A DNA stretch of 64,000 nucleotides from Buxus sempervirens (lineage: Eukaryota; Streptophyta; Magnoliopsida; Buxales; Buxaceae), in NCBI GenBank assembly GCA_947561395.2, contig OX387183.1, positions 2,427,883 through 2,491,882 of the forward strand, in the 5' to 3' direction. A program made the position numbers and the translations under genes. Positions 1 to 37,155 of this stretch are shown one piece after another (the first letter of the stretch is position 1; every line of letters starts with the position of its first letter). The notes under the pieces are model-generated. The model ran no database searches. It saw only the letters and a program-made list of their open reading frames with translations, and had not been told where the DNA came from.

Positions 1-1414
1 ACTGCAGGAGGATCCTCTGGTACTGGGGCATGACTCTGCACCTGTTCCTTGATCCAGAAGTGATAGTCCTTCACATGGGACTCAGAAAAGACTGGACCCC
101 GCAGAAAGCAAACATAGGACCACTCTTTCATTAATTGAGCATTTAGCCCCATGGTGGCTGAAGTAAGTGGCCCTATAAAGCTCTCATAACCTGTGGGAAT
201 CATGATTCCCTGGGTCGCTCCAAATTGCCGAAGAACCCTCAAAGGAAGATAGAGAACAGCAGATTTCAAACCTGCTAGGGCCAGAAAGTTTCTATCTCTA
301 AAGCTGATCACTGTCTCTGGAGTGGGCTGATAAGTGCCAGGCCATCTCACTTGATCATCCTGGAGAGTACCCAAGAAAGTGAACCAGCCTTGCTTGCCAC
401 CTTGGATGTTAGGACATCCCCTATTGCTCATCAAAACAGGAACTTTCAATCTTGGAAAGAAGCGGCGAGTTATTTCTTCTACCTGGCTAAGATGGTCAAG
501 CAACCAAAGCTGCAGAAAAAGGGAGTATTTTAATTTATTTCCAAAAAGAAAAAAAAAGAAAAAGAAAAAAAAAAGAAAAAAGGAAGAAAAAAAAAAAGGA
601 GAAGAAAAAAAAAGAGAAGAAGAAGAAAAGAAAAAAAAAAAAAGAAAGGAAAGGAAGAATAGAAAAAAAAAAAAAAAATAGAAGAAAAAAAAAAAAATAT
701 ACATGCATATTTTACCTGTAGGATAGGGGCGCAGGCAAGGAAGCGTTTCTTCTTCCTGGAATAACAATCAGTAAGAGCCTGATATATCTCTGCTAGGATC
801 ATAGGGGCCAACCTCTCGCGTTCCCTAACCTGACAGATAACTGAGATGAGAGCCAAGTCAACCTGGTCATCACCCCGTGGAAAAAGCAGCTGATTGACCA
901 CTATCAGGGTCAATGCATTAAACCTAGAGTCCTTGTCATTACTCCTCAGAAGTTTTTCAGTCAAAAAGGTCTTGGACAAGGTCAATAGTGCATCAGAATT
1001 TCCTAAGTCCTTCTTCCCTATACCCAAGAAAGTGGAGGCCTCTTTTTTATAGCTAAGCTTTAGGGGTGGGTTCACAACTTTTTCAGAAAATCTAAGGCCA
1101 AGGATGGTTTCAATCTCTTCTATGGTAGGAGTCATCTCTTTATCATCAAAACGGAAGAGATTCAGCTCAGGTACCCAATGGCCTATCAAAGCTTCAATGA
1201 TTTCCCACTTAAAGGGAATTTTAGGGAGGTGTAGGATGTGCCCTAAGTGGATGGAATCCCAACAAATCTCCTCATCAAGGGTCATGGAGTTAACCCATCT
1301 ATCATAAAAGGAATCCACAATATTGTACCTGGTAAGATTAGGAGGTTTTGATCTAACAGGTTGTCTTGCAGGAGGAGATTCAAAGGCAGGAGAAAGCGGC
1401 GTAGGGGAAGCCAT
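1..1414 (-). CDS. DUF7745-type (PMD-related) gene, antisense cargo of element A, cut by window edge
   Basis: Two exons are visible on the minus strand: 1414-716 (233 codons from ATG at 1414, MASPTPLSP) and 509 to beyond position 1. The donor (CAG/GTAAAA) and acceptor (TTTTTCTGCAG) are canonical and the intron is phase 0. The protein resembles plant DUF7745 / aminotransferase-like mobile-domain proteins: an N-terminal Pro/Ser segment, then HWVPELNLFRF and MTPTIEEIETILGLRF around residues 75-110, and WLLDHL at the start of exon 2. Both exons are fully open. The open frame extends upstream of 1414 but without an ATG; the TATA box at 1506-1513 gives the 1414 start a leader of about 65 nt. The molecular function of the domain is unknown; PMD relatives in host genomes act in silencing and development. 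Alternative: a degenerating cargo gene that still happens to be open. Confidence 0.7.
510..715 (-). repeat. Intron made of a polypyrimidine (plus-strand polypurine) tract
   Basis: The intron of the DUF7745 gene. On the plus strand positions about 541-697 are almost entirely A and G (A-runs broken by single G), so the spliced strand is T/C only. This is a very extended polypyrimidine tract before the 3' splice site. Open frames across it (Lys-rich on plus, Phe-rich on minus) are artefacts. Confidence 0.8.
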
Positions 1415-1505
1415 GGAAGCGCCAAAGAAGCCAAGGAAAGCGAGAAAAGACGTGCTCAGGGAGTTTTTCAATTAATAAAAGTGTCACAATGATGTTCCCT
1501 AGGAG

Positions 1506-1667
1506 TTTATATAGAAAAAATCGTAAGACAGTAAATTCCGTAATTATATTACGGGCTAGGCTCGCCCGTATAGAAATTACGGATACAGCTGACCGTGAAA
1601 AGTTCACGGGCAGCGCACGCCCGTGGTAACTTTACGGGCACAGCCTGCTCGTAGTATAATTACGGTT
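1506..1667 (-). promoter_or_regulatory. Promoter of the DUF7745 gene: TATA box plus five-unit palindrome array
   Basis: TATATAAA on the minus strand (1513-1506) lies 92 nt before the ATG at 1414. Directly upstream are five 21-nt inverted-repeat units at 1536-1556, 1564-1584, 1591-1611, 1619-1639 and 1647-1667. Each has 7-nt arms of type NNCCGTR/YACGGNN around 7 free bases, and units are separated by 6-7 nt (period 27-28). The same array design occurs in the LTR of element A. Promoter role is inferred from position. Confidence 0.6.
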
Positions 1668-1879
1668 CCTTCGAAAAAATGCAAAAAAATGGGAATTTTT
1701 AATTTCTTTGGTTTTCCTAAGCTTCACCTGTCCCTGTTTTAACATTCATCAGATAATAAATACTGTAAATAAAGAAGAAAGAATACAAATGGAAATAAAA
1801 CAAACTTCTTTTATATATATGAATGTTTACATCACTTTTGCAAAAAAAAAAAAAAAATACAAAGGTACATGGAAGAATC
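1668..1879. other. Spacer between the two antisense genes of A
   Basis: AT-rich interval between the array of the DUF7745 gene and the stop codon of the PMD gene; it should contain the PMD gene 3' UTR and polyadenylation site. A 15-nt A-run lies near 1843-1857. No coding signal was seen. Confidence 0.5.
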
Positions 1880-4826
1880 CTAATCTAATGGCCATGCAGG
1901 TCCGCTCCTACGGCCACGGCCTCGTCCTCTGCCTCGACCACGGCCTGTAGATCGCCGGCGCTCAAAGACATGCCGCACAATATTACGGGCCGTGCTACGC
2001 GTCATCCTGCTCAAAACAGACTGAATATCATGCCACATATATAAAGGCACAAAGCCAGCAGTGGGATGATCAGGAGGGACGTACCCTGAAGTATCTACAT
2101 ATCCCGTAGAATCGGGATCAGACTCTGTACGGGAAGAATCCGCAGAAGGATCAACAGCAGCATGTGTCACCTCCGCATCCTCCATATCAGGACTAACAGG
2201 ACCAGCAGGAGCAGATGTCCCAGGTACATCAACCTCCGGCTCCACAAGCTCAGTAGCAGTCATCCCCACCTCGGGCTCTACAGGATCAGCTGTAGCCTCC
2301 TCCATCACGGCAGTCTCCACGGTAGGCTCTACCACAGCGGCGTCCATAGCCGAATCCATATCAACACCAGCGGATGCAGCAGGAGCAGTCTCAGCTACTG
2401 GGGCTGACTCTGGCACGTCCTCAGCAGCAGGTACAATATCAGCCTCGACCTCGGGCTCTGCTGCAGGAACCTCCTCTGGACTAGGAGACGTCACGAACTC
2501 CACCCGTGCCACAGAAAACACCTCATCCCGGAAATGCATAGGCACGGGTGAAGCAGGTGAAGAGGGACCAGCTGTGTACTCCTGAAACTAAGAGAAAAAT
2601 TCAGTCAGAACAAGACAAACAAATACAAAAGCAGGAATGGAAATAAAAGAAGAAATTAACCTGAGTATCGGATGGACCCGCCTGGTCCTGTGCATCAGAT
2701 GGACCCGCCTGATCATGTACATCAGATGGACCCTCCTGGCCCTGGGCTCTGGCTAGCTGCCCCCGGAGATCTGAGATAGTGATATAGAGGGCGTCCCGCT
2801 CCGCGATCGCTGCATCACGCTGGCGCTCTAGATCAGCATAGCGAGACCTGATCTCTGCCAACTGAGCCTCCTGAAATAGAGAAGAAAGAAGTCAGAAAAA
2901 TGCTAAAAGCAGATGAAATAGAAATAGAAGATCACAAAAGAAGAAAGCATACCGTGGTGTCGTAGGCCCTAATCACTACCCCTCCTATCTCCGTGACTCC
3001 GCCACGGACAGGCATGGGTGACATGAGGCACCCAACAGAAGATCGCCTGAACCATGCATCATAGTCACCCTCCTCCAATAATGTCTCTGCCTCAGTCCAA
3101 TCTAAGAACTGGGCAGGATCAACAGGCATAGGAGGATAGAGAGGAGTAGTATCTGGCGGGATGGCAGGAATCCGTGGCTCTCCCACATGCTGAAAGAAGA
3201 AGCGCTCGCCACAATACCAGATGCTGCCCAACTGACCAATAAAGAACTGGTATCTCTGTCGTCTCTGGTCAGGGACAAATGCATCATCTCTGGCTGCCTG
3301 CAGGGCTAGCACCTCATGAATGTCCTCCATCCTGGGGACAAATAGCTGAAAACAGAACAAGACATCAGATGTGCGATCCAGGAAGAAAAGAAAAGAAGAA
3401 GAAGAGGAATTAAAGAAGATTACCTCAGACCGGTATAACCTGTCTAAGTGGGCCCGGGCGGACCTGGGACGACTCTTTTCAGAGTCATGCTCTACATGAC
3501 ACCATCTAAGTGCCATGGGATACGTCTCCTCAGGCATCGTAGAGGTAGGGCGGAAATAGGGTATATAAACCCTAGCAAAAAACTGCAAGAAAGAAGAAAA
3601 CAGTTAGAGGAATATAAAATGAGAGATAAACAGAAAGAGATAAAGAAAAAGAAGGGAAATAAGGTTCACCTGCAAGAAGGGCCAGAAGAACCTGCACCCA
3701 ACTCCAGCCCCTCTGGATGTAGAGAGGCCGCTCACTGATCGGCGCAGGCCAGCCAGAATAGTACCAAATATGAGCGGGCCCCAGGCATACCTCCTCGCCC
3801 GCTGCAGATCTCCCAGAAGACTCAAGAAGTAAGGACTAACTGAAGTCGTGTCCTCTGGGAAGAAGCAGGATCCCATCATATATAGAAAGAGGAATCGGAA
3901 GGCAAATGGGAAAACATGGTCACCGGCAGCAAGCTGGCCAAACTGCCTCCTCCTGAAAGTCTCTCTCAACCATGTCAGAGACAATCTAGCTCTCCCCCGA
4001 TCCCATGCCTCAGGAGGCAGCACAATGTATCCAAGATAACCAGCGATCTCCTCAGCCTCTGGCATCGCCATCTCAGTAATAACATCACCGATCATCCTAA
4101 TCCCGGTGATGAGCGTGAAATCAGAAGGCCGGATCCCAATCTCAATATCTGGAAAGTGGAAGCTCAAGGTCTCTGGGAAAAACCTCTCCAATAATGCTGC
4201 AATGAGGGCTCGATCTAAGCGTACGTCCGGGATAGTGATAAACATGCCGAAACCGTACAATCCTAGCTCCCGACGATAGGCCGAACTGCAGGCTCTCAAA
4301 AATTTAGTAAAGCTGGCCCAGCTCCCTCTATAGTGGGACATCGGATACTCCAAAGGGATATCCGCCCTAACGCACGCTGAGGGATGAGTCCTCAAACCAT
4401 GCAGAAGATCGGTGTCCCTAATCTGGGCAGCTACCTCCTCAGGGATCTCAACCCTGGTCCTGACCTCATCTCTGCCACGGCCCCCTCTACGGCCTCCTCT
4501 ATGGCCCTCATCATGGCCTCCATCTCTGCCTCTAGCTCTGCGTCTGCTACGGCTCCTATCTCTGCCAGAAGCCTCAACAGCCGGCTAAAAGAAAATAAGT
4601 GAAGAATCAGGAGGATGTATTTTGGGAAAAGATATGAAATTGCAGAAAGGTTAGAGTATACCTCTGGGGTCGCCTCACGCGAATCCCCAGAAGGGAAATC
4701 TGGGATATCAGAATCAGAATCCCTCTCGGTCCTCGAAGACGAGGCCACATCAGCAGGATCTCGCCTAACCCTCGAGGAGGAAGGCTCATCTGCAGGATCT
4801 CGGGAAGCTGATCGAAGGCGGGCCAT
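1880..4826 (-). CDS. Plant mobile domain (PMD) protein, six-exon antisense gene of element A
   Basis: Exons on the minus strand: 4826-4662, 4584-3670, 3582-3424, 3345-2953, 2870-2661 and 2581-1880. All five introns have GT donors and AG acceptors, all are phase 0, and every exon is a multiple of three; 847 codons are open. Exon 1 is acidic and Ser-rich with repeated DPAD. Exon 2 starts with an RG-rich stretch and carries the PMD core (about residues 120-360, with LLERFFPETLSFHFPDIE and AWDRGRARLSLTWL). Exons 3-4 continue the domain. Exon 5 is predicted coiled coil followed by three GPSD..DQA repeats. Exon 6 is Pro/Ala/Glu-rich and ends in an RG tail. PMD proteins occur as host genes and as transposon cargo; the biochemical role here is unknown. 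The start is the first ATG in frame (MARLRSASRD). Confidence 0.75.
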
Positions 4827-6290
4827 CTACGGTTCAAATCAGGGAGTTGGTTAATTATTCTTGTTAAAATTTTTAATTGCTTAATTGATTAACAGGAAAG
4901 AAGGCACTTCAGAAACTCCCAATCAAATCAAAAGTCAACTGAAGGAGTTTAATTTTCTGTTTGGAAATTTTAGTATGATATTTACTTATCTTTATCTCAA
5001 TCAGGAAAATATATAAAAATTATATATAGGAAGTTATAGGCTTCCTGTATATTCTCTTTATATGAAAAAGAAAAAAAATATGTGTTAAGAATTGATCTTA
5101 ATTCCTCTTTTGGATTTTCTAAAGAAACCTAACCATCTAAATTTAATTGGTTGCAGGAAAGAAGTTCAAGCATATGTGTGTTGAGACTGGGATAACAGAG
5201 AAAAAAAAAATGCCAAATCAGAAGTTATCTACTAGAACCACTGAACGAAATGCGTGGAAAGAAAGGCATTGACCAGTATTACTAAAGACAATTCAGTATT
5301 ACTTCAATGAGTATCCGTTTTTGCAGAGAAATACTTCAGACAATGGGTTCATCTTAACCAATTACAGAGCAAAGAAGAATTAGGATTTGTTAAAACCATG
5401 CAAGCAAGTATAACTTATGCCTGGGTTGTCAATAAGAAGAATCAGCTGGGTACCCCATGAATAAAATCCAAACTTGGGAAGATGTTCATTCAAACAACTA
5501 GAAAAAATACATGGGGATGAAGAAAACATAAATTTTCGGATAGAACAGTGGTATAAAAATCAAAACAGTGTTGAATCTTAAGGTAAATTAGCATGTGGAG
5601 GATTCTGAATCAAAAGCATTCAATCAGGAATGGAGGAATTGTACAACAAAGGTTAATACATGCAAGAACAGAAAAATGGCATAACAGAAAAATCAGGCAT
5701 TATGGCCGATTGCACAGCAACTCCAGAAGAAGTATATGGCATTCACAGCATAACATTTGCAGCAAAAAAGTAATCATCTAATGCCCATTCAAGAACAGAA
5801 ATTTCAAAGCATATAGTTTGGAGAAATTGCTCAAGATGCATTGCGAAGTAGTCAGTCAAAAAAAAAAAAGAGAGGAATTGATTTTTCGGCATACCTCTGT
5901 GCAAGGTAAAAATTTGTATGAGCTTGCCTCAAAAGCAAGGGTTCTACTCACGTGAGAAAGAAATCGGTTGGCAAAATGGCACAACAGCAAGGTGCAACTG
6001 AAATGAAGTGGTTCGCCGGAGGAGGTGAATCGTCGACTGAAGAAAAGGCACCGAAATTAATGAGGAACAATGGTCGCCAAAGAACAATGAGAATCGCCGG
6101 AATTAATGAGCAAGTCGTGGCCACCGGAAATAGCAAACGTCGCCGGAAATAGGAGAGTCGCCGGAGAGCAGTGATCGTCGGAGGATTGTTGAAGGAGAAG
6201 AAGGACCGGAGAAAAGGTTACGGTCGCAGAGAATTAGGGCAGAAATGCGAACAGAGAAGGAAAAGTCGCGTTCGCGAACTTAAGAAGAAG
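4827..6290 (-). other. Probable 5' leader region of the PMD gene, no coding signal
   Basis: AT-rich, with no reading frame of recognisable family on either strand. If transcription starts near the 6297-6400 array, a 5' UTR intron is likely: a strong donor-like CAC/GTGAGTA lies on the minus strand near 5954-5945, and CCGTAG directly precedes the ATG. This is inference. A CCGGCGA-rich patch around 6010-6180 would fall in the leader. Confidence 0.35.
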
Positions 6291-6296
6291 AGTAAA

Positions 6297-6400
6297 ATCC
6301 GTAACATCAGTACGGGCATCTAACGCCCGTGAGCCCACTACGGTCCCAGTTACCCGTGAAACCTCTACGGGCAGGGTCTGTCCGTAAGCACCATACGGGC
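6297..6400 (-). promoter_or_regulatory. Four-unit palindrome array upstream of the PMD gene
   Basis: Units at 6297-6317, 6325-6345, 6352-6372 and 6380-6400, each 21 nt with 7-nt inverted arms (NNCCGTR...YACGGNN) and 6-7-nt spacers, the same geometry as the arrays at 1536-1667 and 6862-6965. No TATA box is evident on the gene side; the adjoining minus-strand sequence is pyrimidine-rich (TCTTCTTCTT). The distance to the ATG is about 1.5 kb, so the role as PMD promoter is inferred. Confidence 0.45.
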
Positions 6401-6744
6401 GAAGCCAAAAATTGCATATTTTTATCATTTTCTCACATTTTTAAGAGATTAATGTACATATTAGTTGTAAGTTGCAAGGATTGCCACGTTACCCACTTTT
6501 GTTTAAAAATTTTGTCTCAAATCTCACTTCATAGCCCACAAGTGCTCAGTGAGAAGAGAGAGGAAGATTTGACCCTTAAGCTGAGGGATTTCTTAGCAAA
6601 TCTTCCACAATCAAAATTTTTTTTTTTTTTTTCAAAAATCATCCCTTTAATCCTTGCAAAGTGCAATTGATTAGACAAAAATCTCAGAAAGTGCAATTGG
6701 TGGGTCTTTTTGCTCTCTGCTTGTAATTGGTTCCAATTACCAGC

Positions 6745-6758
6745 AAAGAGGGGGCAGC
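6745..6758 (+). other. Polypurine tract of element A
   Basis: AAAGAGGGGG followed by CAGC lies directly before the TG that opens the LTR at 6759. This is the expected place of the plus-strand priming tract and sets the orientation of A. Confidence 0.75.
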
Positions 6759-8576
6759 TGTAGACACCCCAAATTGCACTACCAAATGAGAAAATAATAA
6801 AAACATGTAATTAGAGCTTAAAACAGGTCAAAAAGGCCTAAAAATAGAATGAACAGGCTTTGCCCGTATTAGCTTCACGGGCTCATTGCGCCCGCAAATT
6901 ATCTACGGACAAGCACGTCCGTAGTATCGATACGGTCCCCATTGGACCGTAATGTATTTACGGGCATTAAAGACACGTGCAAGTTTTGTCCTTCTCTCGA
7001 TTTCCGAGCCTTATTTGAAGTCCAATATATCTTTAAACGAGCGGATTATGTCTTTTATTCGCTGAAGTCACCTTGGATGGCTATGGATGGGCATCATCTC
7101 TATATTTCACTCTATCCTGAGAATCAGGATATATCCTTCTGGACCAGCCTTGCCCCTGGGTGTGTCTATAAATAGAGGCTCATTCCTCTAGCTAAGGGCC
7201 ACGAAATTTTGAGTCCAAGGAATTCTAAGAAGCTACAAGAGAAGGAAAGGAATCCCTGCTGCTCTGCTTGCTCAATCCAGGTAAGTCCCCTATCCCTTTT
7301 TATTTTCTGTCTTCAATTCTAGAAATAATAGAATCATCTCTATTGCTGTAGAATAAGGCCATATCTGTTTTTGTATTCCTAAACCTGCCTCCAAGTACCT
7401 CAAGGGTCTCTCTAGCCGTAAAACGTGAAGAGAGAACTAGGGGAAAGGGGAACAGGTGGATCCCTAGAATAGAACCCCATATCTGTTTTTTTTATAGAAT
7501 AAGGCCTGTGATTGTGCTTGTGTAACCAAACCTATCTCTAAGTACCTCAAGAGTCTCTCTAGCCGTAAAACGTGAAGAGAGAACTAGGGGAAAAGAGAAC
7601 AGGTGGATCCGTAGGGTAGACCCCCATGTGCTCTAATTTGTGAGATGTGGCTATTTTGAATATCCTGATCATGTTTTAATGCTTTTTATGATATATCTGA
7701 ATGAATAACATGAATCTATGATGTTTATAGCATGAGATCCCCTATTTTTGCTAAAATTTGGATTTTTGCCACTTTTGCACCTACAGCACTGTTTTCGTGA
7801 TTTTTGTGGTTTTAGGCTATGATCTTGGATTTATCATGATCAATATGGTAGATCTGAATCTAGAAGCCTGAAAATAAATTCTAGGGTTTCATAAGATGTT
7901 TTTTAAATTGTTTTTCATTATTGAGATAAGACCCTACGGTCTAAATTCTCCCCTTTTGGTGTTTTTCATAAACGTGAGTCTTTTTGGTTTTGATTTTCAG
8001 ATTTAATGTGAAATTTGGGCTTTATCTATGTCCTGGACTATTCAAGTTCAATTTTGAAATATTTTATAAAAATCATATTTTTCCAGATTTCTAGAATTTT
8101 GACTTGAAGCCAGATTTTTGGATTTTTCACTTTAAATTGATTTTATCTGATTTTATCTCAATTTTGTTTTGATCATGAAACCCTAGGAATGGTATGATCA
8201 TGTTTGATAGTTCTGGATCAATCAGACTATTCATATGAAAAAAACCATATATTTTTATCTTCTTTTTCGTGATTTTTGTGATTTTTATAGCAAGCTTTTC
8301 CCTTTAATTTAACATGAACAAATACCTGGCAACCACCTTGTGTGGATGAATAGGGGTGCCTAACACCTTCCCCTGTTCATAACCTAATCCCCTTACCCAT
8401 CTCTGGTGATTTTTTTTTAGGAGGGTTATTTTTACCCTAAAAGTGCCTTTTGTGCTTATTTAATATTCTGGTGTCCATTCACACCTAAATTGAATGGTGG
8501 CGACTCTTTGTTTAATTTAATCCCGTGTGATGATGGAGGAAATCATTAAAGATTTGATTTTTTCCCATGTCTCACA
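6759..8576 (+). repeat. 3' LTR of element A
   Basis: Starts TGTAGACACCCCAAATTGC and ends CATGTCTCACA. It shares start, end and the terminal 250 bp (AACACCTTCCCC, ATTCACACCT, GGTGGCGACTCTTT) with the LTR of element B, so A and B belong to related Tat-like families. It holds a palindrome array (6862-6965), a TATA box (7167-7174) and two near-identical segments of about 120 bp around 7380-7500 and 7510-7625 (each with CTCTCTAGCCGTAAAACGTG). It is followed by host-element sequence rather than by a PBS, which marks it as the 3' copy. Confidence 0.8.
6862..7174 (+). promoter_or_regulatory. LTR A promoter: palindrome array and TATA box
   Basis: Four 21-nt inverted-repeat units at 6862-6882, 6890-6910, 6917-6937 and 6945-6965 (period 28, 27, 28), with GC-type outer bases. 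TATAAATA lies at 7167-7174, about 200 bp downstream. The period sequence is the same as in the array at 6297-6400. Confidence 0.6.
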
Positions 8577-9486
8577 CCAGTTGTTTGGAAGATGATAAGA
8601 CTCGCACTACAAAAATGAAGAGAATTAGCAGCACCTTTTAGCGGCGGTAACCTAATTCCCGCCTCTAAAAGCACTATTACCGGCGGTAAAAGCACTTTCC
8701 GCCTCTAAAAATTAATTTACCATTTTTTTCAAGCGAAAATTTTATGGCGCGCATTTTTTCAGCGCGAAATAGCCTTTAGCGGCGGTACCTACCGCCGCTA
8801 TAGTAAGTTTTACCGGCGGTAACATATCTACCTCCGGCAACAAGTTGGCGGGAAGGTCCCGCCAAAAAAAGCCTTATTTCCAGCGGTAGCAGTCTGCCGG
8901 TAATAACACTTTTAGCGGCGGTAGGCCAATTACCGCCCCTAAAATCTGGTTTTCAGAGGCAGTGAGATCCTTCCCGCCCCTAAAAGCCATATATTAGCGG
9001 CGGTATATGCATTGCCGCCCCTACAAGTCCCTTTTAGCGGCGGTAAGCCAATTACCGCCCCTAAAAGTAAGTTTTCAGAGGCGGTAGTGTCTTTACCGCC
9101 CCATAAGAGACCCTTTTAGCGGCGGTAGTGTCTTTACCGCCCCTAAAAGACCATTTTAGGGGCTCTAAGGCGATTACCGTCGTAAAAAAATTTGTCTCGG
9201 TGAAATAATGTGCAAATTTTACCGGCGGTTTTAAAAACCGCCGGTAATAACCCGATAACACGTCCTTTACCGGCGGTTACTTTTTCAATTTTTAAAAAAG
9301 ACTCGAGTGCTACTAAGTTGGACCTTTAGAGGCGGGAAATACCTCCCCTAAAAGTCTACTTTTAGGGGCAGGAACCGTATTACCGCCGTTAAAAGGCTCC
9401 TTTTAGGGGTGGTAACCGTATTACTGCCCCTAAAAGTCTCCGTTTAGGGGCGGTGGCGGTAACCTTATTACCGCCCCTAAAAGCCA

Positions 9487-9800
9487 TTTATTAAAAAACC
9501 AGAAATTACTTTTAGCGGCGGTACGCCAGTTACCGCCGCTAAAAGACCATTTCTAATGGTACAAGCGGGATTTTTCCCCGCGTTTCAATTTTGACTGTAC
9601 TTTTAGGGGCGGTAGCCGTATTAATGCCCCTAAAAGTCCATTTTTAGGGGCCGTAACCAGATTACCGCCCCTAAAAGCCATTTATTAAAAAACCAAAAAT
9701 TACTTTTAGCGGCGGTACGCCAGTTACCGCCGCTAAAAGACCATTTCTAATGGTACAAGCGGGATTTTTCCCCGCGTTTCAATTTTGACTGTACTTTTAG
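9487..9800. repeat. Direct duplication inside the CACTA element
   Basis: A block of about 115 bp (ATTAAAAAACCA... to TTTGACTGTACTTTTAGG) occurs at about 9487-9606 and again at about 9683-9800, with very few differences. It includes paired sites GGCGGTACGCC and TTACCGCCGC. Confidence 0.8.
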
Positions 9801-9949
9801 GGGCGGTAATTACCGCCGCTAAAAGTTTAAGCGCGATTTTCAAATTGAATTCAGCTCGCGGGGGCGGAAAATGTAAGGTTTAGGGGTGGTAATCTATATG
9901 CCGCCGCTAAAACTCGAGTCTATAAATACCCGCCGAATCTCTTCCTTTC

Positions 9950-10240
9950 TTCAAGGTATGTCTTTTTCTCTCCATCTCTACTTCTCTCTTTATCTCTCCC
10001 TCTCTACTTCTCTCTCTATCTCTCTTTATCTCTCTTTCTCTCCATCTCTACTTCTCTCTCTCTATCTCTCTTTCTCTCCATCTCTACTTCTCTCTCTTTC
10101 TCTCCCTCTCTACTTCTCTCTCTCTCTATCTCTCTTTCTCTCCATCTCTACTTCTCTCTCTCTATCTCTCTTTCTCTCCCTCTCTACTTCTCTCTCCCTC
10201 TCCATCTCTCTCTCTATCTCTCTCTCCCCTCTCGGTATGT
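9950..10240. repeat. CT-rich microsatellite in the CACTA element
   Basis: About 290 bp of TCTC-type repeat with recurring CTCCATCTCTACTTC. It separates the two GC-rich subterminal halves of the transposon. Confidence 0.85.
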
Positions 10241-10783
10241 ATGCTGCTGAAGGATAGCAGCAAATTTTTTTTTATTTTTTAATATGATTTTTAGCGGCGG
10301 TATTTCCCGCCGCTAAAAAACATGATGTCATTTTTTTATTTTTTAAAATGAGTTTTAGCGGCGGGAAATACCGCCGCTAAAAGCCGGAAATACCGCCGCT
10401 AAAAGTCATGATGGAATTTTTTATTTTTTAAAATACCATTTTTAGAGGCGGTGATTCTCGCCGGTAATGAGTGATAACAATAGCGGCGGTAATTGACCGC
10501 CGGTAATGAATGGGCAATAGCGGCGGCAACTTACCGCCGGTAATGAGTGATACCAATAGAGGCGGTAACGTACCGCCGGTAATGAATGGGCAATAGCGGC
10601 GGTAACGTTACCGCCGGTAATGAGTGAGCAATAGCAGGGGTAAGTCTTTTACCGCCGCTATAAGCGTCAGTGATGGCATCTTTTACGGCAAGAGGAGTTA
10701 CCGCCGGAAATGTTTTTAGCGGCGGTAATTGTTGTTTTACCGGCGGTAAGCTACCGCCGGTAAAAGTGTCTTTTTTTGTAGTG

Positions 10784-13746
10784 TCGAATCCCCGTATACG
10801 TCAAGTTCTTGAACATCATGATCTAGAGCAGCTTGCAATCCAATTATACACGCTTCATACTCTGCTATGTTGTTCGTGCACTGAAACCTCAACTTCACTG
10901 CGATTGGGATATGTGAACCATCCGGCTTCACTAATACTGCGCCAATTCCATTTCCATTCATATTTGCAGCCGCATCAAAGAACATCTACCAGGAGTCTTC
11001 ACTTTCTTCCTCTTCAGCAAATAAAATAGCCTAATCAGGGAAATTTGTCTTAAGAGGCTGATAATCTAGTAACGGATGCTCAGCTAGATGATCAGCAATT
11101 GCCTGGCCTTTGATTGCTTTCTGAGTAACGTACGTCAGGTCGAATTCTGAAAGCAAAAGCTGCCACTTCGCTGTTCTACTAGTTAAAGCCGGCTTTTCAA
11201 ACAGATATTTTAAAGGATCCATCCTTGAAATCATCAAAGTTGAATAGCTTAAGAAATAGTGCCTAAGCCTCTGAGTTGCCCAGACCAAAGCACAACAAGT
11301 TTTTTCCAAAGGTGAATATATTGTCTCATAATCTGTGAACTTCTTGCTCAAATAGTAGATAGCCTTTTCTTTTCTGCCTGTTTCATCATGCTGCCCCAAT
11401 ACACATCCCATTGATGTTTCTAAAACCGATAGATATAGGATCAATGGTTTTCCTGGAGTTGGCGGTACTAGAACAGGTGGATTTAACAGATAATCCTTTA
11501 TTTTATCAAATGCTTGTTGGCAATCCTCATTCCATATAGTTGGATTATTCTTCCTTAGAAGCTTAAAGATCGGTTCGCAAATAGCAGTGAGTTGTGCTAT
11601 GAACCGGCTAATATACTGAATTCTTCCCAGAAAACCCCTAACTTCATTTTCAGTTTTAGGAGGTGGAATCTCAATGATTGCTTTTGCCTTAGACGGGTCT
11701 ATCTCAATCCCTATTCTGCTTACAATGAATCCCAATAATTTCCCTGATGTGGCTCCAAAAACACACTTTGCTGGATTGAGCCTTAAGCTGTATTTCCTTA
11801 GACGGTCAAATACCCTATTTAGATTGATCAAGTGGTCTTCCTCTTCACATGATTTGGCGGTCATATCATCCACATAGACCTCCATTACTTTATGGATCAT
11901 GTCATGGAAAAGGGCTGTCATGGCTCGCTGATACATTGCTCCGGCATTCTTCAATCCAAAAGGCATGACTGTGTAGTGAAAGGTTCCCCAAGGCGTGATA
12001 AAAGCGGTTTTCTCTTGATCTTCCTTTGCCATTTTGATTTGGTTATATCCGGAAAAGCCATCCATAAAAGAGAACAAGCTGTGCACTACCGTGTTATCAA
12101 CCAAGATGTCGATGTGTGGCGAAGGAAAATCATCCTTCGGGCTTGCCTTGTTCAAGTCTCTGTAATCTACACACATCCTGACTTTTCCATCCTTCTTTGG
12201 AACCGGGACTATATTAGCTAACCAATCAGGGTATGTGGAAACCGCCAAAAACCCGGCTTGAAACTATTTCACCACTTCATCCTTGACTTTTAAAGTCCAC
12301 TCTGGTTTCAACCTTCTCAGTTTCTGCTTAATAGGCTTTACTCCTGGCAGGATTGCAGCCTGTGTACAACCATGTCTGTATCCAACCTTGGCATATCCCG
12401 ATAAGACCATGCGAACACGTCCTTGTAATCGGCCAAGAATTGGGACATTTCCTTCTGCTGCATATCAGACAAGCATGCACAAATCTTTACAATTTTTGGG
12501 TCATCTTTGGTTCCCAGGTTTATGGAAATGGTTTCTTCAGTATTAGGTTTAATACCCTTTTCGTGACGTTCCAATTGATATGATATTTCTCTTGGAAAGT
12601 CATCGTCTTCGGCCTCGGTCTCCTCTTCGATCCCCATTAGGTCGAAGTCGAGCTCGAGGTCGAAGTCATATTCAACTTGCTCTAATTCAGTTTGTATATA
12701 TGGTTCATAAGCAGTCTGGACCATTTTGAAAGCTTTAGATTTTCTAGAAAAAGTTGAAAAATCTTTTTGGTTTTTTTGAGAACCTTCTAAAGAGGCTTTT
12801 CCTGAAGATGAAGGTTCATTAAAACCTTCAGGAAAAGGGCGATCCACTAATGGAGTTTTTTTTTGGAGGCCGCAGCTGATTGCCAACCATATGCGGCCTC
12901 AAATGTCAAAGGGATCTCTTCCCAATTTTTTAACGTAAAGCCTTCTGGAGCAGGTGGTATAGTGCAAACCTGCTCCTCCTAAAGCTCTTGATCCGATACC
13001 ATCATTACCGGATTTGAAAAACTGCCCTTTTCTGCTTCTGGGTTGAGATCAGATGTGACTTCATCTGGGATCTTGATCGAGGTCCAGTCAATAAAAGGAA
13101 CCTCTTTTCCTGCTTTCTTTCTTCCTTCGTCCTCTGTCATTGCAAAGAATGACCCTGCCTCTTCTATGAAGTCTTGCCGTTCTCGTGGCAGTGGCTCCGG
13201 TTCATCCACGGCTTTAGGCGTCAAAGTGGGTGAAAGGGGGATAAAAGGTTGAAGGGTTGGGGTAAAAGGTTTTCTAAAAGGATTATCATTAAAATATGGG
13301 GGTTTGGAGGAATCTGTAGGAGGAGACAGTTGAATGATATGAGAGGGCTTTGAAAAAGTTTCCCTTAAATGAGGGAATTTTCCTTTATTCTTTTCCCTTT
13401 CATTACCATTTTCTTTCTATTGTCCCCTCTTCCATCTTCTCATTTTCATCCCTAGTCCTGCTCATGGGACCAGTCTTTGTGCCTCTATGGGCTCCACTCT
13501 TCCTTGTAGATTAATTCCCAACCCCTTTCCTGGGTGAAAATCCCAATCTTTCATGACCTTCTCCACCATCCTGTCGGCGCATGTCAGCTTCTCATTCTTT
13601 TTTAAACACCCCCCAGGTATGAAGTTGACTGTTTCAAACTGAAAAGAATGAAACGCAATTTTGTCTGCCGTTAATTCCACATTAATAAAAGGTACGTCAG
13701 GTGGTATGACGGGAGGGACTAGACTCTCGGCTAGGACTGTTATCAC
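10784..13746 (-). CDS. Element B pol: linker, reverse transcriptase, RNase H start
   Basis: Fossil Ty3/gypsy pol. Reading down the minus strand: a glycine-rich segment GKGLGINLQG near 13.5 kb (G-patch-like, known in Tat elements), an acidic linker near 12.4-13.2 kb, reverse transcriptase about 12.25-11.5 kb with SFMDGFSGYNQI, MPFGLKNAGAMYQRAM and VYVDDM, a connection region with GFLGRIQYISRFI, and the RNase H start near 10.98 kb with FFDAAANMNGNGIGAVL. Assigned to the Tat/Ogre side of Ty3/gypsy from these motifs. Broken. Confidence 0.85.
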
Positions 13747-13762
13747 CCTTTGACCCCTTATA

Positions 13763-16153
13763 TGTAAGACCCTGATTTTTGGTGAGTTTTATTTATTTTT
13801 GATATATAAACTGTGTTTATCAGGTGATTTTTGTGGTTTGAGGGCTTAGCCCATACTCGTATGTACAGGCGTTATATAACCGTTTTTCTGAAAACTTATA
13901 TTATTATTATTAAAGTATAGTTGTGTGCTTATTAACGTAAGTGGATGTGGAACATGTAGAGTTTCTAGTGGGCGAGTGCGCATAGGATCAAGGAGTTAAA
14001 GATTGATCGGGTGGCGTATGTATCGCAAGGTAAATATACAAAAAGGGAAAGTAGGGTTTGGGTTTATAGAATACTCGTATGAATACTTTTGGCAATACTT
14101 TTGTTTGCTGAAGAAGTTGGGCGACTTGGCGATTCGCGGCTCTGGTGTGGCGATTAGGGTTTTGCTAAGAAGAACGAAAGGTGCAAGTAGCTGCGATCGG
14201 ATAGTTCGAGTCGGAGATAGAGATTCAGTCGGTTATTTATTCTCGCGAACAGGGGATATATCAACTACGGTCGCTTCCTCGCGCGCAGCCGGAAATCGCG
14301 ATCGGCTGGTTGGGGAAGAAGCTGTTGTCCTGGGATTAAGCGCATACTGGTGAGTAGCACTGTTTTAAAACCGAGGTTTTAGTTTATTCGTAATGTATTT
14401 TGAAATGCATGGTCGTATTGTGAGTTCTGTGTTTTTCTGGAATACCGCGAGTTACGAACGAAGATTGAAAATTAATGTGAAATTAAAGATGTTTAGATTA
14501 AATCCAAAATGGGTTGGGAAGTCTTCTGGGAGTATTAGGAGTGTAATGGAGCAATAAAAGACCTAAAGAAACCAGCCAGAGTTGGAGATCTTGAAATAAC
14601 AGAGACTCGAAATTCGTAGTGGGTATCCGCCCACTTGGTGCCCACTTGCGCCCACTTCGGGAAGTAGGCGCCTAGGAAATTTGATCTGGCGCTCTTCTCG
14701 TGCCTTTCTCCCGCTCAGCTCGCGCTCACTTAGCGTCGAGTGAGCGCATGGTCCTTTTCCACCTATTTTCTATCCACCGATTGGCGCTCACCTGGCGCTC
14801 ACTTCAGGAAGTGAGCACATACCCAATTTAACTTACCAAATTTGATTTCTGACTGAACCAAGGGGGATTTTGATGTCTTGGGGTTTATATCACTTCACCA
14901 AACACTGGTTGGTAACCTTGGAACCTGCATTTCTTATTTAATTCCTAGGAGAATTCTAGTGGCAAATTCTTAAAAGTTTCCAAGATGAGTGTGGGTTATT
15001 TTTATATATGATTGTGCTGGATACCAAAACTCTAGGAGTTCTTAGTAGTTTTCTCCTCGAACTTATACAATGTTCTAATTGAGAAATGATTGACTTCTGG
15101 TTTCATTTTTTTGGGAAATGCTGAAATGTATGGTCTTGTTATAAATAACTGTGTTTGTATTCAAATGGCATGGTTTTGTGGAAATGAGAAATACTGAAAG
15201 TATTGAGATACTGTTTGGTCCAAAGGGACAGGTGATGAACTATGATGAGATATACATGATGTGGAATGAATGGTTTTTACTTTAAATGTGAAATTCAGAT
15301 TATACGATGTTTTACTGTTTTGGTCTAGCTTGTCCTGGATCTAGAGTCTAAGCTTAGTAATGTAATGTTATTTGTTGGTTGTTGGAATTGCATGGCCTTG
15401 TGTGTTGCCACGACCGGTGTAGAGCAACCAGAAACCCTGAGTAGGCCTAGTTGTCAATGCAGAAACCCGGGGAGTAGGCCTGCATTGGATGACGAAACCC
15501 TGAGTAGGCCGTCATTTCAGAGTTTCCGAAACCCTGAGTAGGCCGGAACTGTGTACATGGAGGTGTGGAGTGTCTACTTGGCATGTTTAATTTATCAACT
15601 AAACAATAGTCATGACATTGTCCGATCGATGTGTTGTCGTACTTAACTGAGATGTGATTTGACCGATGAGATGGGTTTTGGTTTGAACTTGATTATGATA
15701 TGAGTTGTTTAATCGTACGGAACGTTTATCGATGCATAGCTTTGAACTGTGATTAACTATTTCTGCATGCATGTGCTACTCGCTGAGATATTTGTATCTC
15801 ACTATGTTGTTTTGTTGTGATTTTCAGATACTCGTGGCGAGGCGACTACTGGGGTAGATCCTGCTGAGGCTTATAGGGAGGAAGGTTACTATTACCTTCC
15901 TTACACTTGTAGGTTATCTTGTTCCGAATTTGAGTACGTTGAATAATTGAGGTGTATTAAAATCTATTTGGGGGTTGAACCATATGTTTCTAGTTAAGTC
16001 TAAACGTTACATTTCTTGGATGAATAAAATTGTGCACTCTGACAGGTTATAGTTATATGATTATCCAGCGATCATATTTAATTATCGATCCTTGCCTAAC
16101 CTCCGTGAGATGTGTTATATCTTTATTGAACAACACGGATCCGGGGCGTTACA
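13763..16153 (+). mobile_element. Solo LTR G inserted in pol of element B
   Basis: 2391 bp opening TGTAAGACCC and ending GGGGCGTTACA, flanked by the exact 5-bp duplication TTATA (13758-13762 and 16154-16158). No gag or pol lies inside, so it is a solo LTR left by LTR-LTR recombination. It is related to LTR H at the right window edge (shared GAGATATTTGTATCTCA-like segment and the GGGGCGTTACA end), a pattern seen in Del/Tekay-type Ty3/gypsy LTRs; the lineage call is tentative. Open frames inside it are not recognisable proteins. Confidence 0.9.
15428..15545. repeat. Short repeats in solo LTR G
   Basis: Four near copies of GAAACCCTGAGTAGGCC at roughly 30-33-nt steps, separated by unlike spacer bases. 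Comparable place in LTR H shows different short repeats. Confidence 0.7.
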
Positions 16154-16949
16154 TTATATATTTTACTCTTTGGTGAAGGGTGGATGGTATCGCCCTAGTT
16201 GAGTGAATCCACGGCCTTCCTAGGAGAAGATTGAAGGCAGCTGGAATATCTATCACTTCGAAAGTGATATTAAAGATATTCGGTCCGATGGTAGTCGGCA
16301 ATTCAATCTCCCCTAGGGAGTGTGTTTTGGAGCTATCAAAAGCTCTCACTATCCTTCCGTTCTGCTTAATTTTGGATTGATCTAGACCGAGTCTAACAAA
16401 TGTTACTAAGGGACAGACGTTTAAGGCTGACCTATTATCTATTAGAACTCGGGCTATCATATTACCCTTACAAAGCACTGTGATGTGCAAAGGGTCCACA
16501 TGATAACATCTGCCAGGGCTTATCTTGCTTTCCGAAAAGCTTATTACATTGTGAGATAAGATCTGGCCGATCATCATGCCGAGCTGGTCTGGCTCAATTG
16601 TTTTAGGCACGTGAGCACTCTGGAGTACCTTTATTAATGAGTCCCTATGCTTTTCTGAATTAAGCAACAATCCCAGTATTGATATCTGGGCAGGGACCTT
16701 AATTAATTGGTCGACAATATTGAATTCACTCTTTTTCAGTATTTTTAAGAGGTCCGCTACCTCATCATTGACGACCTGGGGGTGTCTTCCCCTATCTTTG
16801 CCTTTCCCCTCTGATTTTGTTCTGCCTCTTTCTTTTCTTGTTGTTTTCCTTCCACACATCTCCCTGATCTTGTCATGAGATTTATTTCCTCCTGACTCTG
16901 ATTCCTGGCCACTGGGATAGTGGTCGTATAACCCTCGCTGTAGTTCCAA
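16149..16949 (-). CDS. Element B protease region
   Basis: Fossil retropepsin-type region following gag. Recognisable parts are VLIDNRSALNVCP (active-site neighbourhood of the gypsy protease) and NLLLGRPWIHSTRAIPSTLHQ, the motif that closes the domain in Tat-type elements. Reading continues in 13.75-13.46 kb on the far side of solo LTR G. It overlaps the end of gag in another frame, a usual arrangement for LTR elements. Confidence 0.8.
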   Translation of the reverse strand: MELQRGLYDHYPSGQESESGGNKSHDKIREMCGRKTTRKERGRTKSEGKGKDRGRHPQVVNDEVADLLKILKKSEFNIVDQLIKVPAQISILGLLLNSEKHRDSLIKVLQSAHVPKTIEPDQLGMMIGQILSHNVISFSESKISPGRCYHVDPLHITVLCKGNMIARVLIDNRSALNVCPLVTFVRLGLDQSKIKQNGRIVRAFDSSKTHSLGEIELPTTIGPNIFNITFEVIDIPAAFNLLLGRPWIHSTRAIPSTLHQRVKYIM

Positions 16950-18970
16950 GGTACAACAGTTTCTGAATAGGAGGGTTTAGGAACGTTAAATACCAAGGGC
17001 TGGAGATGAGACCTTGGTGCAGGAGTTGATGTGGGAGTGGGGTTGGAAGGAGGCACCTCAATAACCAGAGGCGAGGATTGCCTGGGTTCCTTGGGTTGAG
17101 AGGATCTCAAGGTCTGAGAAGAAACAGAGGTAATGGATGCTGTGGCGGGGTCATATTTAATGACCAAAGGTGGTTTGGATGATGGAGTAGGTGAAGGAGC
17201 AACATCCTGGTTGCAATTAATGATGAGAGGGGGTTTGGTTACATTAAGCTGGGCCATGAGAGAAGCGGCCCGGTTCAAAGAGGTATTAATGTCCTCTGCA
17301 GTCTTGCCACTTCCTTTATTTCTAGAAATGACGTTGATTTGTTCCCCTATCTCTTCTTGGTCAAAATGGACCGTAACGGACGTCCCTATGAGTACAATTA
17401 ACTGCGAGGGATCAAACTTCTTAGGTCCAGAAGAGACGGTCCCTACAAAATTGGAAGGACCTGCCCCATTATGCTGGGGCAGAGGATTTTGACCAATGTC
17501 AGTCCTAGCGGGAGAGGGTGCAGCCGTGTTAAACAACAAGGTTCCCTGATCGATCAAATCCTGGATGGCATGTTTTAATGGCCAACACCTGTCTGTAGGG
17601 TGTCCTGGTGCACCCATATGGTATTCACAGGTGGTGGAGGGATCGAAATTCTTTCCCTTTGAAGCATTCGGATTTGGCTCTTTCAGGGTAACATACCCTG
17701 CGTTTAACAAAGTTGGCAGAAGCTGGGATGGAGTCATAGGAAGAGGGGAAAGGACCCTATTTCTTCTGGACGCCATCCAAGCGTCCCTCTCATCTTTAGA
17801 GAATACCCTTTTTTGGTTGGGCATTGCTGCTTGAGGAACATTAATATTGAGAGGGTTTTGATAGGTCGATTGCGGCTGCACTGGGCTGGATGGAGGTGCA
17901 GAAATGTTGACTTGGAGTGGTTTCTTGGAGGGTTGGAGTTGTACCATATTTACTTCCCCTTCTTTCTTCCCTCCATTCTTTCTTGCCCCATTTCTTTGCT
18001 TTTGGGCAGAAGAATCAGATGTGGGCTCCTGCTGACGAGCCGTGGCAGAATGGTCATAGATTCTCCCGGATCTGATTCCATCTTCAATCCGGTCTGCGAC
18101 TTGCACTAAGGCAGCAAAACTGGTGGTTATTTGACCCACCAAGTGATCGTAAAAAGGCTGCCCTAGTGTGCCAATAAAGGTCGTTACCATCTCAGGCTCT
18201 ATCATGGGCGGCCTGACTTGGGAGGCGGCCTCTCTCCACCTTTTGGCATACTGCCTTACTGTCTCATCTCTTACCTTGCTCATCTTCGTCATATCATACC
18301 TATCTGGTACGATGTCGGCGTTGAAACGGTATTGAGCGAGGAAAGCATTAGCCAGATCCTTCCACCTTCTGATTCTGCTGTGGTCCACTGTCGCGAACCA
18401 CCTTAAAGCTGCCCCTGTCAGGCTTCTCTGGAATAGCTGGATCAGGATGCCATCATCTCGGCCAAACTGGCACAACACCCCATAGTAGAGCTTCAGATGG
18501 CTCATTGGGCATCCTGTGCCATCATACTTTTCAAAGTCTGGGCATTTAAATTTGGCCGGTAGGCATGCGTCGGGGTACATGCAAAGATCCTTGAAGTTGG
18601 TACCACCCAACGTGTTGATCCCCCTTACTTCTTTCAGCTCTTCTTGGATGGACTCCAGCTTGTCCAAGAATTTTCTCTCCAGTTCTACCCTCAGTCTCTC
18701 CTTTTCTTTCTCCTTCTCCCTCTCATATTCAGATTCCTCCTCCCGGATCAAGATAGGCTCGGGGTTTGGCTGGTAGAGTTCAGGTTGAGGTGGGATAGGT
18801 TGGACTGGTGGTGGAAGATCATTTTGAGGTGGAGCTGGTGGTGCATTGTGGGATAAGGAAGCCTGGTGAACCTGAGCCTGCGCCTGTTGCTCCTGCATCT
18901 GGGCCTGAGCCGCTTGGTTGGCCAGCAGATTTTCCAGCAGTTTTGTCATCCCTGCCACTTGCTCCTGCAA
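16757..18970 (-). CDS. Element B gag
   Basis: Fossil gag of a Tat-like element, over 700 codons. It shows a Gln-rich start, a charged EREKEKEKERLR coiled segment, the retrotransposon gag core (KFDKYDGTG-like FEKYDGTGCPMSHLKLY, ALRWFATVD, FNADIVPDR, ETVRQYAKRWREAA), a CEYHMGAPGHPTDRCWPLK zinc-knuckle-like stretch and a long Pro/Ser-rich tail. The frame stays open upstream to about 19085, so the true start may be there. Confidence 0.85.
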   Translation of the reverse strand: MQEQVAGMTKLLENLLANQAAQAQMQEQQAQAQVHQASLSHNAPPAPPQNDLPPPVQPIPPQPELYQPNPEPILIREEESEYEREKEKEKERLRVELERKFLDKLESIQEELKEVRGINTLGGTNFKDLCMYPDACLPAKFKCPDFEKYDGTGCPMSHLKLYYGVLCQFGRDDGILIQLFQRSLTGAALRWFATVDHSRIRRWKDLANAFLAQYRFNADIVPDRYDMTKMSKVRDETVRQYAKRWREAASQVRPPMIEPEMVTTFIGTLGQPFYDHLVGQITTSFAALVQVADRIEDGIRSGRIYDHSATARQQEPTSDSSAQKQRNGARKNGGKKEGEVNMVQLQPSKKPLQVNISAPPSSPVQPQSTYQNPLNINVPQAAMPNQKRVFSKDERDAWMASRRNRVLSPLPMTPSQLLPTLLNAGYVTLKEPNPNASKGKNFDPSTTCEYHMGAPGHPTDRCWPLKHAIQDLIDQGTLLFNTAAPSPARTDIGQNPLPQHNGAGPSNFVGTVSSGPKKFDPSQLIVLIGTSVTVHFDQEEIGEQINVISRNKGSGKTAEDINTSLNRAASLMAQLNVTKPPLIINCNQDVAPSPTPSSKPPLVIKYDPATASITSVSSQTLRSSQPKEPRQSSPLVIEVPPSNPTPTSTPAPRSHLQPLVFNVPKPSYSETVVPWNYSEGYTTTIPVARNQSQEEINLMTRSGRCVEGKQQEKKEAEQNQRGKAKIGEDTPRSSMMR

Positions 18971-19245
18971 TTGAGCAAAGGCCTCAGCAGAAACAGTGGA
19001 CAGTTTTTCAGTAGGGTTAATGGCGGCAGATTTTAGTCTCTGAGAACATCGGGGAGCAATGGTTGCAGTAGGAACCGAAAACCTTTAAAATAAAGAAAAG
19101 AAGCAATATCAGTATCCCAATAAATCTTGTTTACACACCTATGAATGCATGCATGCAGGCTTGGTGAACATGAGTTTGGGATTTTCCTTGTATTCATATT
19201 TTTTACTTTTTGGGTTTATGGTTAAAATAACCTTATCAAAATGAG

Positions 19246-19812: not shown

Positions 19813-20132
19813 TGATTTTCTAAATTCAGGCTTTAGAAGGCCTATGAAGATTTAAAAAAGATCTGGAATTTCAGGCTTCCAGGGATCCTATGAGTTTCTA
19901 AATTCAGGCTTTAGAAGGCCTATGAAGATTTTGAAAAAGATCTGGAATTTCAGGCTTCCAGGGGTCCTATGAGTTTCTAAATTCAGGCTTTAGAAGGCCT
20001 ATGAAGATTTTGAAAAAGATCTGGAATTTCAGGCTTCCAGGGGTCCTATGAGTTTCTAAATTCAGGCTTTAGAAGGCCTATGAAGATTTTGAAAAAGATC
20101 TGGAATTTCAGGCTTCCAGGGATCCTATGAAT
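19813..20132 (-). repeat. 79-bp tandem repeat, about four copies, leader of B
   Basis: Copies begin near 19813, 19892, 19971 and 20050, with an exact 79-bp step for the last three. Each holds TTCTAAATTCAGGCTTTAG and CTGGAATTTCAGGCTTCCAG. The repeats are related in sequence to the longer repeats next to them. Confidence 0.88.
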
Positions 20133-20134
20133 TT

Positions 20135-30294: not shown

Positions 30295-30308
30295 AATTCC
30301 CCCACACT
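30295..30308 (-). other. Polypurine tract of element F
   Basis: AGTGTGGGGGAATT on the minus strand, directly before the LTR start TGATAAG. Confidence 0.8.
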
Positions 30309-30868
30309 TAACCTTTGCTCGTCCTCGGGCAAAACTTAAATTCACTTTCCCAAAAAATTCAGATTGATATCTCATTAACAAGAATCAGAAAGCAATTCAA
30401 AACTTAGAACCTATCATGAACAAATATTTCTGAAATACTCACAATCACTTAGCAAGTATTTTCACTTGAAGGTGGAGCAAACCAAACACATAGACCCTCA
30501 TAGAAATAAACACTCATGCAATTGAAGGGTATGTGTTTCACTCAAATTCATTCCAATGGAATTGATCTACCATAAGCTTGTTTATCTTCTCAATTTCCAC
30601 CACTGGGATCACATGAATAACACAAATCATAAGGGCTTTTCATGGGTTGTAATGGGGCTTAGGATTAAGGTAGGAAATAAGTGGGAATGAAGCTCAAAAG
30701 CCTTAGAAACTAATGGAGCAAAAGTACATCATCTCAAGCTTAAATGTATAAGACATATAAAACCAATCACTCCCTTTAGAAAATTTTCCTTTTTTTCATA
30801 TATCATGCATAAACAAACCCTTTTTCTTTTTTTTTCTTTTCTGTTTTGTTTTTCTGCTTCTTCTTTTT

Positions 30869-30899
<31 letters not shown>

Positions 30900-37107: not shown

Positions 37108-37132
37108 TCAAAGATGATTATCAAAGAGAAAC

Positions 37133-37150
37133 TCCCCGGCAACGGCGCCA
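37133..37150 (-). other. Primer binding site of element F (tRNA-Asp)
   Basis: TGGCGCCGTTGCCGGGGA on the minus strand, five bases after the LTR end. It matches the 3' end of plant tRNA-Asp (GUC). Confidence 0.88.
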
Positions 37151-37155
37151 AAATT

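Follow-up and report, generated by a model that had tools for sequence, protein, structure and literature searches.

A palindrome array shared by the long terminal repeat and the antisense genes of a Gypsy retrotransposon in Buxus sempervirens

Element A and its antisense genes

The window, as we call the whole 64,000-nt stretch of Buxus sempervirens DNA analysed here (assembly GCA_947561395.2, contig OX387183.1, positions 2,427,883 to 2,491,882), opens with the downstream part of a retrotransposon, element A, whose long terminal repeat (LTR) and antisense cargo genes carry arrays of the same short palindrome. By its domain layout, element A is a Tat-lineage Ty3/Gypsy element with antisense cargo. 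It is oriented on the forward strand, the polypurine tract and the 3' LTR coming after the cargo. The tract was recognised from the sequence directly before the 3' LTR (6745-6757, +), and the LTR itself (LTR-A, 1818 bp; 6759-8576, +), delimited by alignment to other copies, has a TATA box at 7167-7174 (+). The upstream part of the element was read in locus L031, where a gag open reading frame (ORF; 1256-5038) has a G-patch and a pol ORF (4987-8625) matches RVT_1, RT_RNaseH, RVT_3, and rve above cut-off, i.e., reverse transcriptase (RT), two RNase H domains, and integrase.

The cargo belongs to the plant mobile domain (PMD) superfamily, with Pfam matches above cut-off. A DUF7745 gene (1-1414, minus strand; Pfam and reading frames) starts at the ATG at 1412-1414, has a first exon that probably extends to about 718 and a second at about 1-505, and runs on into L031. 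Its ORF at 530-1471 matches DUF7745 with 77.2 bits (cut-off 26; E 1.6e-21) and also PMD with 47.2 bits (E 2.3e-12). Further along, a PMD gene (1880-4826, minus strand; ATG 4824-4826; same evidence) has its domain in the ORF at 3604-4584 (PMD, 64.9 bits, cut-off 34.9, E 9.3e-18), which together with the ORFs at 2932-3603 and 1880-2587 would make up the exons of one gene; both genes apparently have introns. The ORF at 1880-2587 encodes an acidic stretch (net -34 in 142 residues) and an RG-rich tail. Four antisense ORFs were scanned for domains: two are the DUF7745 and PMD ones and two are without any domain. No TRP28 (PF04195), the mark of the Retand sub-lineage, was found in these four, the last DUF7745 exons lying outside the scan, and DUF1985 and DUF287 were absent from the scanned ORFs, which matched only DUF7745 and PMD.

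The DUF7745 gene is under strong coding constraint. Between the window and a related copy in locus L046, the proportions of nonsynonymous (pN) and synonymous (pS) differences are 0.146 and 0.778 for DUF7745, and 0.223 and 0.772 for PMD, the L046 copy of which is broken; between element A and its sister element C (see below), they are 0.200 and 0.722 for gag, and 0.044 and 0.765 for RT. The DUF7745 protein of the window has at least 134 matches in the genome, itself included, all with at least 89% identity (the best 134 of 20,530 candidates were scored), and 117 of these 134 have no stop codon, in a list headed by the best candidates where decayed copies are under-represented. A search for homologous proteins with DUF7745 returned no homologue.

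Geometry, places, and conservation of the arrays

The initial annotation had described three arrays of a 21-nt inverted repeat in element A, at 1536-1667, 6297-6400, and 6862-6965. A chain search of the window, accepting units with at least six of the eight core letters of CCGT-N9-ACGG and steps of 26-29 nt, recovered these arrays less two outer bases per arm, and with the spacings that had been claimed: five units at 1538-1665 (steps 28, 27, 28, 28), four at 6299-6398, and four at 6864-6963 (28, 27, 28 in both). Chains of three or more units were found in none of 100 dinucleotide shuffles of the window, which has 32 single palindromes with at most one mismatch against 5.1 expected (100-shuffle maximum, 10). 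The search of the genome for palindromes at 27-28-nt steps, proposed as a check in that annotation, gave a strong excess over the reversed pattern that served as control. Both strands of the 676.5-Mb assembly were scanned with a query made of one unit and the next half-site; a long array gives several matches, and the number of matches is thus not the number of arrays. There were 15,948+15,898 matches at the 28-nt step (31,846) against 36+26 (62) for the reversed pattern, and 3,053+3,063 at the 27-nt step against 11+13. With 31,846 matches against 62, the arrays are not the product of chance.

This palindrome, hereafter type 1, recurs at steps of 28 or 27 nt and is rigid in its dimensions. In the 264 kb made up of the window and loci L031-L050 (19 of these 20 loci were chosen for holding arrays), the gap within the unit is 9 nt in 107 cases, 8 in two, and 10 in three, and the gap between units is 11 nt in 61 cases and 10 in ten. 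The neighbours of 95 distinct perfect-core units, whose eight core letters are fixed by their selection, extend the consensus to GMCCGTR-N7-YACGGKC; the centre of the unit is AT-rich (78%, 95 units) and the spacer GC-rich (61%, 51 spacers). The GC-type outer bases that had been noted are mostly G/C, but this does not extend to the outermost half-sites of several arrays, where AA, TT, or AT often stands beside CCG in place of G (window 1538, 1649, 6299; L031 284, 396).

Type-1 arrays occupy four stations in element A: the U3 of the LTR, the gag leader, the DUF7745 promoter, and the region upstream of PMD. The five-unit array of the DUF7745 promoter (1536-1667, -) lies, as had been reported, 22 nt upstream of the TATA box of that gene (TATATAAA; 1506-1513, -), or 24 nt when counted from the core, and the five units are kept in place in nine of nine DUF7745 promoters (the window and eight copies picked from the 134 scored matches). 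The four-unit array at 6297-6400 (-) is indeed upstream of the PMD gene, about 1.47 kb before its ATG, but there is no TATAWA within 60 nt of it; likewise, the four-unit array in the U3 of LTR-A (6862-6965, +) is upstream of the LTR TATA box, but by 203 nt. Beyond the three arrays described initially, there are a five-unit array in the gag leader of element A (L031 284-412, just outside the window) and two arrays in LTR-B, a related family represented in the window by what is apparently a solo LTR (47328-49682, -; alignment to other copies). The first of these, a decayed one (48968-49040, -), precedes the TATA box of LTR-B (48945-48952) by 15 nt, and the second lies about 0.8 kb downstream of that box (48057-48157, -). 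The claim that one operator is shared by the LTR and the antisense cargo genes is borne out.

The places are fixed across copies. We fetched 19 loci, chosen by type-1 array matches in the first 8 Mb of one contig, which show the places of arrays and not the share of LTRs without them. All 38 arrays in these loci sit at fixed stations of LTR-A (10, at +143 to +170), the gag leader (3, at +348 to +350), or LTR-B (25, of which 14 at +574 to +733 and 11 at +1560 to +1610). Of 44 arrays, ten have a TATAWA at a distance of 12-28 nt; the figure for random places is 4.5%. A TATAWA lies within 60 nt of nine LTR-B arrays, and in eight of these the distance between array and TATA box is 15-17 nt.

The conserved part of the half-site is its CCGTR core. 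In nine DUF7745 promoters, invariant columns number 47 of 50 in the core, compared with 21 of 35 in the centre and 22 of 43 in the spacer (43 of 78 jointly; Fisher p 1e-6). Ten LTR-A rows give 30 of 40 invariant columns in the core, against 4 of 28 in the centre and 5 of 32 in the spacer (9 of 60 jointly). Across eight whole LTR-A rows, the p-distance is 0.45 in the centre and 0.42 in the inner spacer, against 0.13 in the rest of the LTR, a value for the centre that was reached by 0 of 1000 random column sets; the U3 adjoining the array also changes fast (0.22-0.30 per 60-nt bin). In the same eight rows, CpG was kept in 408 of 427 comparisons within half-sites, against 650 of 960 elsewhere, a retention made notable by the fact that methylated CpG decays. 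Among known sites of similar build, the NAC-type palindrome CGT-N7-ACG was not adopted as a model, the corresponding gap here being 9, and the fungal Gal4-type site CGG-N11-CCG is the mirror image of the array unit.

A second half-site type in sister families

Other elements of the window carry a second type of palindrome, AACCGY-N9-RCGGTT, which has the N9 gap of type 1 and AACCGY at the stations corresponding to the type-1 half-site GMCCGTR. Several type-2 pairs have the 28-nt step, and pairs are 38-41 or more nt apart, unlike in type 1. When up to one mismatch is allowed, the window has 21 matches where 0.12 are expected (0 of 100 shuffles), and exact pairs match the genome at 2,833+2,848 places against 0+0 for the reversed pattern. 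In the window, type 2 is found in the U3 of LTR-C, the leader of element C, LTR-B2, and the nested LTR-D. Element C (part of pol with RT, and gag, at 11031-19084, -) is 92% identical to element A in RT and about 60% in gag; its type-2 palindromes are at 24603-24868 (-) in the U3 of LTR-C (22562-24979, -; LTR end read from the sequence) and at 20869-20955 (-) in the leader, between LTR and gag. LTR-B2 has type-2 units at 42031-42255 (+), upstream of its TATA box (42271-42278), the last of which (42235-42255) is degenerate, and a distal pair with the 28-nt step at 44744-44792 (+). LTR-D, nested within it, has units at 42964-43213 (+), upstream of its TATA box (43228-43235), and a pair with the same step downstream of it (43864-43912, +). 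LTR-B and LTR-B2 are alike around the TATA box and differ in half-site type.

The stations of the two types are laid out in a similar way. Two type-1 copies have the DUF7745 array 5.0-5.2 kb away from the array of the 3' LTR; in four full-length type-2 copies the separation is 5.1-5.4 kb. The PMD station is at 0.54-0.57 kb in three type-1 copies, and the leader station at 3.72 kb in three of the four full-length type-2 copies. An additional array is present in all four type-2 copies (G000 C1:7826144, 14730883, 9461928, 10602696) at 7.4-7.7 kb, on the pol side of the DUF7745 promoter and some 2.25 kb away from it; there is no type-1 unit at the corresponding pol-ward place of element A (L031 8600-9999). 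The types do not mix in the listed places of one contig: exact type-1 matches were not found inside the four type-2 copies (three of them covered by the 27-step list only), nor exact type-2 matches inside three type-1 copies.

The difference extends to the promoters of the cargo. The array place of the DUF7745 promoter is occupied by type 1 in the window and in the eight copies close to it, and by type 2 in loci L046 and L059. The DUF7745 protein of L046 shares 74% (161/219) of its residues with that of the window, and that of L059 70% (125/178); L046 and L059 are 83% (138/167) identical to each other. The frame is open over 183 codons in L059, and the last unit is 130 and 131 nt from the ATG in L046 and L059, against 121 in the window. 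This pairing of motif and protein covers nine type-1 promoters of one clade and two type-2 promoters of another, i.e., a contrast of two clades.

Several features lie beside these elements. Near the end of LTR-A there is a CACTA-like insertion (about 8605-10783, ends CACTACAAAAA ... TTTTTGTAGTG) crowded with the short inverted repeats GGCGGTAA/TTACCGCC. Element C has a 79-nt tandem repeat in its leader (19851-20134). LTR-D (42802-44468, start TGTAAGCACC) has CACTC on both flanks and sits inside LTR-B2 (about 41461-45528). Another Gypsy element (28786-38661), whose 1.5-kb LTRs are 99.3% identical (28786-30294 and 37153-38661), has no listed unit of either type and makes a useful negative control. 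Among the fetched loci, L035 holds an LTR-B element (about 2273-9461) with an internal region of about 4.7 kb, where queries with the gag and RT of the window found no match; it is apparently a non-autonomous carrier.

Possible regulators and known systems

On balance, and with reserve, we lean to reading the arrays as operators, served by a rigid homodimeric binder that the element itself makes, most likely DUF7745 and/or PMD, acting in a positive loop. The strict gap and step, the constant core, the free centre, and the fixed distance to the TATA box (in LTR-B and the DUF7745 promoter) point to a rigid DNA-binding dimer on promoter DNA, and the dimeric factor imagined in the initial annotation would fit this geometry. 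The unlinked stations of one element share a half-site type whereas sister families in the same genome differ, for which a binder coming from the element would be the simplest source; half-site types segregating by element family are easier to reconcile with a binder encoded by the element than with a host factor. As candidates we take DUF7745 and PMD, because they are antisense genes with their own promoters, are under coding constraint, and include, in one ORF of the PMD gene, the acidic stretch and the RG-rich tail. The product of either or both would form a rigid homodimer, probably oligomerising, and a single protein would occupy sites in the LTR U3 and the gag leader as well as in the DUF7745 and PMD promoters. 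Once bound, it would activate the element RNA and the regulator genes jointly, or shield them from silencing, which closes the putative positive loop. Sister families would use the other half-site in the same geometry, each answering to its own protein. Binding, the identity of the binder, the positive sign, and the link to DNA methylation are what we infer from these patterns. Activation or anti-silencing is favoured because host PMD proteins are needed by motif-bearing genes, because counter-silencing by PMD has been proposed, and because the leader and promoter stations resemble the targets of VANC proteins; repression seems less likely.

A number of observations weigh against this reading. 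A plain promoter switch would need no arrays beyond the TATA box of the LTR, and this is where 14 of the 38 lie (11 in LTR-B at +1560 to +1610 and the three of the leader). The label of promoter module given initially is too narrow for these, and the accompanying question, whether arrays are equally common away from promoters, has a two-sided answer: in the loci chosen by array matches, all 38 are at fixed stations, but not all are upstream of the TATA box. In the LTR-B copies of L041 and L044, and in one LTR of L035, there is no TATA-proximal array at our threshold, only the downstream one. L035 also has type-1 arrays, and the one DUF7745-like gene it carries is broken and lies in sense; with their cargo broken, some carriers would depend on helpers. 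When the two outer bases are included, half-sites are no more conserved than the LTR as a whole (0.138 against a mean of 0.133; 587 of 1000 random sets are as low or lower). The split into types is imperfect, since some type-1 arrays end in half-sites with AACCG or TTCCG, in part resembling type 2, and the type of three of 38 arrays is undecided, and no exact type-2 pair was found at the PMD station of type-2 copies. Finally, a search of the PDB with PMD found no relative, which leaves a DNA-binding fold conjectural.

Other explanations account for part of these observations. Plant LTR promoters commonly use host factors, and a host transcription factor (or two paralogues) might have been recruited so that one tissue expresses both LTR and cargo, with some other role for the antisense proteins. 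The half-site shared by LTR families A and B would suit such a factor, as would the constraint and fixed TATA spacing, which fit any activator; we nevertheless find it unlikely, because one genome has two half-site types sorted by element family at several unlinked stations, and because no array lies outside these elements in the 19 loci, themselves picked by array matches. An element protein acting on the arrays as a repressor, for copy-number control through a negative loop, is a more doubtful proposition. Repressor operators often abut the TATA box, as the array does in LTR-B and the DUF7745 promoter. The host PMD proteins MAIN and MAIL1 act in silencing (PMC5418596), which would suit repression, but motif-bearing genes need host PMD proteins for their expression (PMC9899485), and the sites here are upstream of the TATA box and not over it, by 203 nt in LTR-A. 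If the inverted repeats formed RNA or DNA hairpins of the genomic RNA, serving packaging or stability, one would understand that every station is within the full-length RNA and that arms are conserved while loops vary. Yet the arms are only 5-7 bp long and keep their letters within a family, with no covariation, and an RNA model explains neither steps of 28/27 nt nor a distance of 15-17 nt to the TATA box, which makes hairpins very improbable. Neutral tandem repeats would be another origin, and arrays of that kind have been reported (PMC11963269), but here the units have only their half-sites in common, with nearly invariant cores and hypervariable centres that differ even between copies (p-distance 0.45), and this origin can be set aside with hardly any doubt.

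A broader version of the element-made operator is offered more tentatively, as a possibility we would not yet back. Gypsy families may run private circuits, in which an antisense PMD/DUF7745 dimeric anti-silencer recognises half-sites peculiar to its family, spaced in a rigid 9/28-nt frame and set at that family's promoters and leaders. Competing families that share a nucleus could then separate by a change of half-site, and the fast-changing bases between sites would also blunt matching by small interfering RNAs. The function of the antisense genes of Gypsy elements and of the plant mobile domain is an open question, for which a regulatory or counter-silencing role has only been suggested, and the shared motif gives a direct way to test what these genes do: two natural half-site types, so far paired with two protein clades, and an operator present in thousands of places offer a ready swap experiment.

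Parts of this arrangement are already in print, namely cargo genes in antisense and a proposed counter-silencing role for PMD. Tat/Retand-type Gypsy elements (Grande with gene23, Retand, RIRE2) have additional antisense ORFs, as here, and gene23 of Grande has its own promoter, a nuclear product, and a suggested regulatory role (PMC7264820, PMC11963269). The antisense ORFs of PMC11963269 contain TRP28 and other domains, the words PMD or plant mobile being absent, and an operator shared by the LTR and antisense promoters is not described in the accessible portions of these two articles. The initial annotation cited no description of the arrangement, and our search of the open-access literature gave no operators shared by LTRs and antisense cargo either. 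PMD genes (PMD-A) are carried by Gypsy elements across angiosperms (PMC5418596, PMC9289625), and counter-silencing by PMD proteins made by transposable elements (TEs) has been proposed (PMC8616336; for Mutator-like elements, or MULEs, PMC5418596). Host MAIN and MAIL1 are needed, directly or not, for the expression of genes with a promoter motif (PMC9899485) known as DOWN (PMC9899485, PMC7156037); it differs from the half-sites here (CATGCAGTTT in MORC1), and those studies do not establish contact of host PMD proteins with DNA. The closest likeness is to the VANDAL MULEs of Arabidopsis, where VANC21 recognises YAGTATTAY and VANC6 AGTTGTCC and AGTTGTAC (PMC5735166, PMC10398659). There too, a TE family has short motifs arrayed in several noncoding regions, a family of TE proteins, and a motif that differs between related families, and the leader and promoter stations described here resemble the spread of VANC targets over several noncoding regions in VANDAL21. 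The arrayed motif in TE noncoding regions is found here as well. VANDALs are class II elements with DUF1985/DUF287 proteins and same-orientation motifs, often in tandem repeats, whereas the present elements are LTR retrotransposons with palindromes of fixed gap and step whose units are alike in their half-sites only. If our reading is true, it would hint at what proteins related to MAIN and MAIL1, which act in silencing in the host, do inside elements, and sequence-specific anti-silencing would extend from VANDAL DNA transposons to LTR retrotransposons.
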